A stretch of 64,000 bases of DNA from Psychromonas aquimarina ATCC BAA-1526 (lineage in GTDB: Bacteria; Pseudomonadota; Gammaproteobacteria; Enterobacterales; Psychromonadaceae). Made by a program: the position numbers and the translations under genes. Below are positions 27,245 through 30,045 of this stretch, piece by piece; the first letter of the stretch is position 1; the number at the start of each line of letters is the position of its first letter. The stretch is from positions 178,234-242,233 of the forward strand of contig NZ_KE386792.1 of the NCBI RefSeq assembly GCF_000428725.1, read 5' to 3'. The notes beneath the pieces are model-generated. The model had not been told where the DNA came from and searched no databases. It saw only the letters and a program-made list of their open reading frames with translations.

Positions 27245-28627
27245 TTAGCTTTGCGCCTGCAGCTCACCATCATCACTTATATCTACGTTTTTATCTGTAT
27301 CAAAGAACAGTTTAGTTTCTGCAATAACAACATGACGTAACGCAATTAAACCGATCAGGTTAGGAACTGCCATTAAACCGTTAACGATATCGGCAATAAT
27401 CCAGATCATATCCAGATGCAGGAATGCACCCGATGCCACTAAAGCTACAAAAATCACTTTATAAGTCAGTATGCCTTTGGTGCCGAACAGATAAACAACA
27501 CAGCGTTCACCATAATAGTTCCAGCCCAAAATGGTGGTAAAGGCAAAGAATATCAAACCGATAGAAACCAGTAACGGACCAACTGTCTGCGAATCCAGAC
27601 CAACGGCAAATGCATGCGTAGTCATCTGCGCACCCGCTAAATCTGTCTGCCATGCACCGGTTAAGATAAGTGCCAGCCCGGTCATGGTACAAATAATAAT
27701 GGTGTCAAAGAAGGTGCCCGTCATAGAGATAAGGCCCTGCTTTACGCAGGAATCTGTTTTAGCCGCGGCGGCCGCCATCGGCGCACTACCTAAGCCCGAT
27801 TCATTTGAAAACACCCCTCGCGCCACACCCGACTGAATGGCCAGCATAATACCGGCACCTAAGAAACCGCCTGTCGCGGCTGTTGATGTGAAAGCTGAAG
27901 CAACCACAAGCTGCAGGGCATCAAGCAGATGCTCGGCATTAGTAATAAGTACACTTAAACAGGCCAGGATATAAAACAGCGCCATAGTCGGCACGACTTT
28001 TCCGGCTACTTTAGCAATGGATTTGATCCCGCCCAGGGTAACAACGGCAACTAATATCGTCAGCACTGCTGCAGAGATTTCCCGTGATACACCAAAAGAA
28101 ATTTCAGATGCGTCGAGAATGGCATTTACCTGCGGAAACGTACCAATACCAAAACAGGCTACGCCCAGCGCAAATACCGCAAACATAACCGCCAGCGCTT
28201 TCGAGCCTACGCCGTACTGCAGGTAATACATAGGTCCGCCGACCATCTGGCCGTTCGAGTCTACTTTGCGGTATTTAACTGCAAGCAGACACTCTGCATA
28301 CTTTGTTGCCATACCGAATACAGCAGCCAGCCACATCCAGAATAGTGCGCCGGGACCGCCTAGTTTTATAGCAGTCGCAACACCGACAATATTACCCGTT
28401 CCGATTGTCGCCGAAAGCGCGGTACATAGTGCGGCAAAGCTGGATATATCACCGCTGCCGGATTTATCTTTACTGAAAACCATCTTAAGTGCTGTAGGCA
28501 GGTGACGGAACTGCAGTAAACCTAAGCGGAAAGTGTAATAAACACCTGTTCCGACCAGCAGAATAAGCAGCGGCGGTCCCCAGATAAAACTGTCGACGGT
28601 TTGTAATAAAGATTGAAGATTGTTCAT
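27245..28627 (-). CDS. Sodium:alanine/glycine symporter (AGCS family)
   Basis: A 460-residue inner-membrane symporter that brings in alanine or glycine with sodium. The length and the many hydrophobic helices fit the AGCS family. Typical segments are seen: FAALCTALSATIGTGNIVGV near residue 65, GGPGALFWMWLAAVFGMATK near 88, and a conserved block near 270-285 (GVARGVFSNESGLGSAPMAA). The long leader on the minus strand contains a tandem glycine riboswitch, so glycine is the likely signal and substrate. Vibrio cholerae VC1422 has the same gene-riboswitch arrangement. An AAGGGGAAATC ribosome site precedes the ATG. Confidence 0.93.
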   Translation of the reverse strand: MNNLQSLLQTVDSFIWGPPLLILLVGTGVYYTFRLGLLQFRHLPTALKMVFSKDKSGSGDISSFAALCTALSATIGTGNIVGVATAIKLGGPGALFWMWLAAVFGMATKYAECLLAVKYRKVDSNGQMVGGPMYYLQYGVGSKALAVMFAVFALGVACFGIGTFPQVNAILDASEISFGVSREISAAVLTILVAVVTLGGIKSIAKVAGKVVPTMALFYILACLSVLITNAEHLLDALQLVVASAFTSTAATGGFLGAGIMLAIQSGVARGVFSNESGLGSAPMAAAAAKTDSCVKQGLISMTGTFFDTIIICTMTGLALILTGAWQTDLAGAQMTTHAFAVGLDSQTVGPLLVSIGLIFFAFTTILGWNYYGERCVVYLFGTKGILTYKVIFVALVASGAFLHLDMIWIIADIVNGLMAVPNLIGLIALRHVVIAETKLFFDTDKNVDISDDGELQAQS

Positions 28628-28748
28628 GATTTCCCCTTAATAAAAAGTAAATTTAAGGAGAAGAGGGAAAGGGCAATAGATCCATAGAAAAATTCTATAG
28701 ACTATAGCTAAGCATTTCATTGTGCATTAGTTTGTGTAGCTTTCCACT

Positions 28749-29169
28749 CCTCTGTCCTTTTGCCTGAGAGTTTCACCCTAAACATTTAGGGCTTGCTCCT
28801 TCGGCGGCCGAATAAATACCAAATCCAATAATTTTCTATTCATTTATGCTGGTTAAAATGAATGCTGGCTTCGTTGTTGATTTTGTAATTAGAATAACTA
28901 GTTACTGCAATCAACGCCTTGCTTTCATCCATTTTTCCTACGCCTAAATAGATCACCTAATTAATGGAATTGGTATACCGGCTCTCTCCAGAGGTTCCTC
29001 CAACTACAGTCCTCGCTTCGCTCATCTAAACATTTCTGTTTAGCGCTATTCAAAATGAATAGAAAGCACCTGAAAGATTTAACTATGTAACTACCTGCGC
29101 TGCATAGTCTTGCTTCTTCGGTAAGCTAAAACGCCAACTTAATCAACGTCTTAACTATTCTCCTGTAGT
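28749..29169 (-). ncRNA. Tandem glycine riboswitch, second aptamer split by an insertion
   Basis: Reading the minus strand, aptamer 1 starts with ACTACAG (29169-29163), has ACCGAAGAAGCAAG and ATCTTTCAGG, and closes with CTGTAGT (29009-29003). A linker GGAGGAA leads to aptamer 2: CCTCTGGAGAGAGCCGG (28994-28978), then a ~165-base element, then CGGCCGCCGAAGGAGCAAG, CTCTCAGGCAAAAGGAC and closing CAGAGG (28754-28749). These are the conserved cores of the gcvT/glycine aptamer, with both P1 helices perfectly paired. The leader precedes the AGCS symporter gene, about 120 bases before its ATG. Aptamer 1 also carries ~55 extra bases before GGACTGTAGT. Confidence 0.88.
28815..28979. mobile_element. ~165-bp palindromic MITE inside the riboswitch P3 loop
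   Basis: The ends are inverted: AATACCAAATCCAATAATT (28815-28833) against TATACCAATTCCATTAATT (28979-28961 on the other strand), 16 of 19 identical. The interior is also largely palindromic (for example GTTGATT and AATCAAC). It codes for nothing. It sits exactly between GAGAGAGCCGG and CGGCCGCCGAAGG of the second glycine aptamer. Confidence 0.75.
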
Positions 29170-29532: not shown

Positions 29533-30045
29533 ATGAGAAAACAAAACAGCGGCTTTACCCTGATCGAACTGGTCATAGTGATCATCATATTAGGCGTTCT
29601 GGCAGCAACTGCACTGCCCAAATTCATCAATTTACAATCCGATGCCTTTAAAAGCCAGCTGGCGGCCGCTTCGGCTTCGATGAAAACGAGTGTTCTGCTT
29701 TTTAATTCAAAGTCTAGAATATCGGGCGGCGGTGATGACCGAGTGGTTTACTCAGGCATAGTAGGTGCCGCCCATCAGCCCTGGGCTGCCAGTTCCAACG
29801 GCACTTCTCCCAGTACTGCTTATACTAATCCGCCGGAAATTTTTAAAGCAGCAGGGATGGATACTGCCGACTGGTCCTACCGTATTTATGTTGCAGGTAC
29901 TTATCAAGTAGCGGCGAGTCCGAAGCAGAAACTCGATAGTGCACAACCCACCTTAGCCCAGGTGACAGCAACAGACTGCTATATCCATTATAAATGGGAA
30001 ACTTCGGGTACGCCCACTATTCAGTTATTCGATGACGGATGCTGA
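29533..30045 (+). CDS. Type IV pilin-like protein (MSHA-type)
   Basis: A 170-residue type IV prepilin. The leader MRKQNSG is followed by the cleavage and methylation site FTLIELVIVIIILGVLAA, with Glu at position +5, and by ALPKFINLQSDA as in MSHA pilins. The C-terminal part has a cysteine pair (TDCYIHYK and DDGC), forming the usual D-loop. No pilus-assembly genes lie nearby, so it is an orphan pilin that would use an assembly system encoded elsewhere. An AGGGAC site precedes the ATG. Confidence 0.88.
   Translation: MRKQNSGFTLIELVIVIIILGVLAATALPKFINLQSDAFKSQLAAASASMKTSVLLFNSKSRISGGGDDRVVYSGIVGAAHQPWAASSNGTSPSTAYTNPPEIFKAAGMDTADWSYRIYVAGTYQVAASPKQKLDSAQPTLAQVTATDCYIHYKWETSGTPTIQLFDDGC

Follow-up and report, generated by a model that had tools for sequence, protein, structure and literature searches.

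A miniature inverted-repeat element within the P2 helix of a tandem glycine riboswitch in Psychromonas aquimarina

Peripheral riboswitch stems vary in length between species, and to our knowledge the origin of a long stem extension has seldom been seen. A mobile repeat co-transcribed with riboswitches is described for the pneumococcal trp leader, in which a BOX element lies between two T boxes and which, in the portion of that paper available, its authors think is still functional (PMC3049150). The Correia elements (CREE) of Neisseria are likewise MITEs, of about 150 bp, that can form hairpins in mRNA leaders; they lie outside riboswitches, and the accessible text reports their cleavage by RNase III (PMC2649163). 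Riboswitches made by MITEs have been called conceivable in the available sections of a review (PMC10969869). For the host RNA, the nearest described system is the Vibrionaceae type of tandem glycine riboswitch (RF00504), which belongs to transporter genes and has aptamers 1 and 2 ahead of an AGCS symporter gene. The Vibrionaceae glycine riboswitches studied control transporters and, in the part of the study available, have the more conserved aptamer 2 (PMC6944388), so that an insert in this aptamer sits in the one thought to matter most.

We analysed 64,000 nucleotides of the Psychromonas aquimarina ATCC BAA-1526 genome (hereafter the window), in which a tandem glycine riboswitch with the same core lies upstream of an AGCS symporter gene whose start codon is the ATG at 28627 (Table 1). 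The position of the P2 loop is the same as in relatives, whereas in the window a 159-bp transposable element occupies that loop in aptamer 2. The BOX element sits between two riboswitches and the Correia elements outside them; this element sits inside the ligand-binding domain. Neither the riboswitch nor this type of element is new in itself, and what is new is their combination inside that domain; in the open-access literature searched we found no described case of a MITE inside a riboswitch aptamer. The reading that we favour, and consider likely, is that a recent, self-folding MITE extends P2 of an otherwise intact aptamer 2, and that glycine control, as an OFF switch, has most likely been kept.

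Table 1. Coordinates of the interrupted riboswitch, its surroundings and a related insertion sequence
Feature	Coordinates	Strand	Basis
AGCS sodium:alanine symporter family protein, 460 aa, intact frame	27245..28627	-	PF01235, E 1.4e-136
Inferred expression platform	28633..28759	-	Folds of own and relatives' leaders
Aptamer 2 of tandem glycine riboswitch, interrupted	28749..28994	-	RF00504, 41.5 bits; 49/49 invariant columns kept
Aptamer 2, P1 5' strand CCTCTG	28994-28989	-	Sequence
Aptamer 2, P1 3' strand CAGAGG	28754-28749	-	Sequence
Aptamer 2, P2 5' strand GCCG	28979..28982	-	Sequence, G006 alignment, P2 covariation in relatives
Aptamer 2, P2 3' strand CGGC	28807..28810	-	Sequence, G006 alignment, P2 covariation
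Left flanking trinucleotide GTA (the four empty sites have TTA)	28976..28978	-	G006 comparison, empty sites
Miniature inverted-repeat element, 159 bp, TACCAATTCC...GGATTTGGTA, IS630-like ends	28817..28975	-	Genomic copies, boundaries, DDE_3 element ends
Right flanking trinucleotide TTT, then ATT of old P2 loop	28814..28816	-	G006 comparison
Aptamer 1, divergent, extra stretch between P3a and P1	28997..29175	-	25.1 bits, below gathering score
IS630-like insertion sequence, same genus	G004:C1:6413-7546		1134 bp, two transposase frames, HTH and DDE_3 domains

The element, its genomic copies and its empty sites

The element has the termini TACCAA...TTGGTA. A preliminary description of this locus had reported an insert of about 165 bases with inverted ends; the inverted ends (16 of 19 positions identical) stand, and the repeat unit is shorter, at 159 bp. 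The window's genome contains at least 40 scored matches to the element at E 0.001 or better, itself included (77 candidates), as well as 53 exact end motifs. Of the 24 genomes examined from the genus, the window's own among them, 23 carry the element; neither the plasmid nor the phage collection returned a match. It is short, carries terminal inverted repeats and is dispersed in many copies, and it is therefore a MITE. A target-site duplication is present at the level of the family: of the 26 copies with usable flanks (30 loci, less 3 that are partial and 1 lying at a contig end), 19 have the same three bases on both sides, either TTA or TAA. The riboswitch copy belongs to the other 7, its flanks GTA and TTT being unlike each other and unlike TTA; nonetheless, exactly 3 bases have been gained beyond the element.

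MITEs derived from IS630 are defined by ends common to an autonomous IS630 element and by a TA target; the duplication of the present family reads TWA, not plain TA. A DDE_3 insertion sequence in another genome of the genus (G004), flanked by TAA and TTA, has similar ends, both of which match the left end of the 159-bp element (94% over 18 bp and 85% over 27 bp). The two differ in size, the G004 element having 1134 bp and two transposase frames versus 159 bp for the riboswitch element. We use the label IS630-like on the strength of the DDE_3 and HTH domains and of the features of the IS630 family. In the window's genome the related transposase is represented by three fragments, two of them at the start of a contig.

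By Rfam search, the riboswitch was found in 5 of 24 genomes of the genus, and the other four are all empty at the insertion site (TTAACT in G006, TTAGCT in G018, TTAAAT in G001 and TTAATT in G007). The closest of these by DNA match is G006; its leader is collinear with that of the window except that exactly 162 bp are missing, corresponding to the 159-bp element and 3 further bases. Both comparisons proposed in the preliminary description, with other genomic copies of the insert and with the same leader in relatives, thus bear out an insertion. An assembly artefact is unlikely: each flank supplies one half of the same aptamer, and a false join at a repeat is made improbable by the collinearity of both flanks with G006 and by the position of the site inside a 436-kb contig.

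The riboswitch copy has 0 private substitutions among the 27 copies compared (drawn from the 30 loci of the window's genome by an end-to-end match of at least 85%, with one further copy from G018 and one from G006), 7 of the 27 having none. Because of this the insertion into the riboswitch is probably young. In a copy of that age an intact core is to be expected even without selection, so the retained core cannot prove selection.

Other properties of the family were examined across its copies. A preference for hairpin loops was rejected, since joined empty sites of the 26 copies with usable flanks (riboswitch copy included) had a mean of 6.5 spanning pairs versus 7.1 at 2913 control TWA positions (one-sided p = 0.70). 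Rfam scans for recurrent insertion into structured RNAs, covering 53 further loci (52 holding the element, 11 of them matching only in part, and L053 without it), returned one SRP RNA, two tRNAs and no riboswitch, so that within this sample such insertion is not recurrent. A promoter or terminator inside 28817-28975 was rejected within the reach of a consensus scan, which gave no promoter-like site and no terminator. Length variants also occur: a 68-bp short version retains both ends (L189, G000:C28:48546-48613), and two longer copies of 182 bp, 80-81% identical, coexist in the genome (L029 and L030).

The interrupted helix, its conservation and its predicted fold

Read along the minus strand, aptamer 2 runs CCTCTG, GAGAGA, GCCG, insert, CGGC, CGCCGAAGGAGCAAG, the remaining core and CAGAGG. 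The preliminary description had assigned the insert to the P3 loop, which the Rfam structure line and covariation among relatives correct to P2. In the structure line the interrupted helix is the first hairpin after P1, and P3 starts downstream of that hairpin. In the aptamer 2 sequences of 21 relatives, all 4 of its 4 pairs show changes on both sides, with 100% of cells paired. A motif search of 24 loci had located 23 aptamers (none in L092); the alignment leaves out two of them, L080 (Psychromonas antarctica), which is the same as G001, and L095. We take the first hairpin after P1 to be P2 of the usual glycine riboswitch numbering. Stems named P2 and P3 appear in the available part of earlier work on glycine riboswitches (PMC6944388).

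The identification of the RNA as the second aptamer of a tandem glycine riboswitch preceding an AGCS symporter was confirmed by the RF00504 score and by the PF01235 match (Table 1). Equally sound was the observation that the CCTCTG/CAGAGG P1, the GCCG/CGGC pairing and the core bases are kept: with the 21 relatives as reference, all 49 of 49 invariant columns are retained, as are 61 of the 62 columns conserved at 90% or more, the last being the first loop base, outside the mapping, which is G instead of T.

At minimum energy the interrupted aptamer is predicted to keep P1, P2 and P3, with the insert as one long imperfect hairpin on P2 that contains many bulges and internal loops (folding z of -5.2 for the insert alone and -5.75 for the aptamer with insert). 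The single hairpin had been anticipated in the preliminary description, which stacked it on P3; the prediction stacks it on P2. Mean helix probabilities for P1, P2, outer P3 and inner P3 were 0.997, 0.993, 0.997 and 0.898 in the window versus 0.996, 0.989, 0.991 and 0.896 in the empty G006 leader. With 100 shuffled inserts the corresponding means were 0.87, 0.41, 0.78 and 0.84, and all four exceeded 0.8 in 27% of cases. When placed in the aptamer in the same orientation, 26 other copies of the element fold like the riboswitch copy, and copies in reverse orientation do slightly worse (0.91, 0.87, 0.94 and 0.90). As shuffled inserts spoil P2 and other copies do not, the self-complementarity of the element, not its exact letters, is predicted to preserve the fold of the aptamer; secondary-structure prediction of this kind ignores tertiary contacts between the aptamers.

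Covariance searches gave a different picture of the same RNA. Neither RF00504 nor a model built from the 21 relatives aligned both flanks as one aptamer, an outcome that the preliminary description had named as refuting its reading. In both models the position of the 5' strand was taken by the end of the element: the 41.5 bits from RF00504 (gathering score 32) were obtained with the 5' strand misplaced in this way, and the model of relatives gave 61.9 bits for the 3' part and, separately, 7.6 bits for the 5' part. In our reading, the failure to join the flanks reflects the penalty that these covariance models place on an insertion of 162 bases, since RF00504 gives 70.6-74.6 bits to the four empty congeners, whose flanks are nearly identical to those of the window. 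In practical terms this is a blind spot, the covariance searches used having misplaced half of an interrupted aptamer.

The spacing from GGAGA to CCGAAG is 185 nt in the window versus at most 48 nt across a wider set of symporter loci, measured at the 56 of 80 that gave a hit in a simple motif search. In an RF00504 survey of the order (295 genomes, the window's own included), 85 genomes had matches above the cut-off and 7 more had sub-threshold matches only; the best match per genome reached 48.6 bits or more in 84 of the 85, the exception at 41.5 bits being the window's genome, and with one best match taken per genome an interrupted aptamer beside a strong one would escape. The length of this loop also varies naturally: in four Vibrio species (L085, L088, L089 and L109) the aptamer 2 P2 loop, the same loop as that of the insert, is 14 nt longer (TACTACTTYGTTGTAG).

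In aptamer 1, a long P2 occurs in 19 of the 25 leaders compared (counting the window's genome, and P. antarctica twice). All four congeners share, in varying form, the extra stretch that separates P3a from the P1 3' strand, and P3b is present in the window's genome and G006 and absent from G018, G001 and G007. A type IV pilin-like gene (FTLIELVIVIIILG motif), which we take to be MSHA-like, adjoins the riboswitch on the opposite strand at 29533-30045 (+).

Expression platform and the fate of glycine control

In minimum-energy folds of the leaders of the window, G006 and G018, the P1 3' strand with GGAGTGGAAAG pairs with CTTTCCCTCTTCTCC; in an alternative pairing, CTCCTTAA could pair with TTAAGGGG of the ribosome-binding site (28640-28633). 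The two helices exclude each other, which suggests that the leader is a translational OFF switch. Twenty-four leaders were submitted to this analysis, of which L092 and L095 yielded no platform and G001 only a fragment (folded as L080), leaving the window's own and those of 20 relatives. Among the relatives, the P1-side helix is the minimum-energy form in 13 of 20, the helix over the ribosome-binding site in 3 of 20 (L079, L084 and L086) and other shapes in 4 of 20 (L090, L091, L094 and L097).

On the favoured reading, the P2 loop of aptamer 2, six bases long, would recently have received a non-autonomous IS630-like MITE at its TTA. The element being one long inverted repeat, the RNA copied from it would fold up by itself and stack on P2 as an extension of about 160 nt, with P1, P2, P3 and every conserved core base left in place. 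Glycine would then stabilise P1 and free the CUCCUUAA pyrimidine stretch to cover the ribosome-binding site (OFF), with folding time or cooperativity possibly altered by the insert. The symporter is thus probably still under glycine control, perhaps in altered form; we infer glycine binding, OFF control and a mild effect of the insertion.

The opposite outcome, that the insertion breaks or weakens the switch, would have aptamer 2 fold too slowly or fail to dock with aptamer 1, the symporter escape glycine control and the core persist as the relic of a very recent event. The riboswitch copy without private substitutions and the change of both flanking trinucleotides are consistent with it, and the greater conservation of aptamer 2 for transporters, as far as the available text of that study goes, means that a disturbance there would matter (PMC6944388). 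Predicted helix probabilities equal to those of the empty G006 leader, however, together with the retention of every invariant aptamer position and an intact symporter frame, argue against a broken switch, which we regard as unlikely. Still less of our confidence goes to the idea that the insert adds regulation of its own, either through RNase III cutting the long hairpin, which would leave an aptamer of two RNA pieces, or through a change in mRNA stability. The binding of Correia elements in mRNA by RNase III, which can also cleave them according to the accessible text (PMC2649163), speaks for such a role, as does the folding of the insert as one long imperfect hairpin, but the many bulges and internal loops that interrupt this hairpin speak against it. 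That the insert is instead a lineage-specific piece of the leader and no mobile element at all would fit its position within the leader and its predicted folding with it; this is refuted by the matches in the genome (at least 40, itself included) and the empty sites in four other congeners, to which are added ends like those of an insertion sequence, and we give it practically no weight.

Implications

An element tolerated in a riboswitch helix is what the locus suggests, and 'tolerated' marks the limit of what the sequence supports. More speculatively, the MITE hairpin may act within a functional aptamer 2 as one of its working helices and alter how it responds, whether by slowing its folding, by changing its cooperativity with aptamer 1 or through nicking by RNase III into an aptamer of two pieces; we put this forward tentatively and think it less probable than not by a clear distance. 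If it were true, mobile DNA could remodel a ligand-sensing RNA without breaking the riboswitch. Here, for one riboswitch extension, one can examine the family to which the element belongs, its target, and the site both empty and filled. The locus thereby offers a natural and direct test: it could show whether function survives when a self-folding mobile element enters a ligand-binding RNA, and how large a piece of foreign RNA such a domain tolerates.
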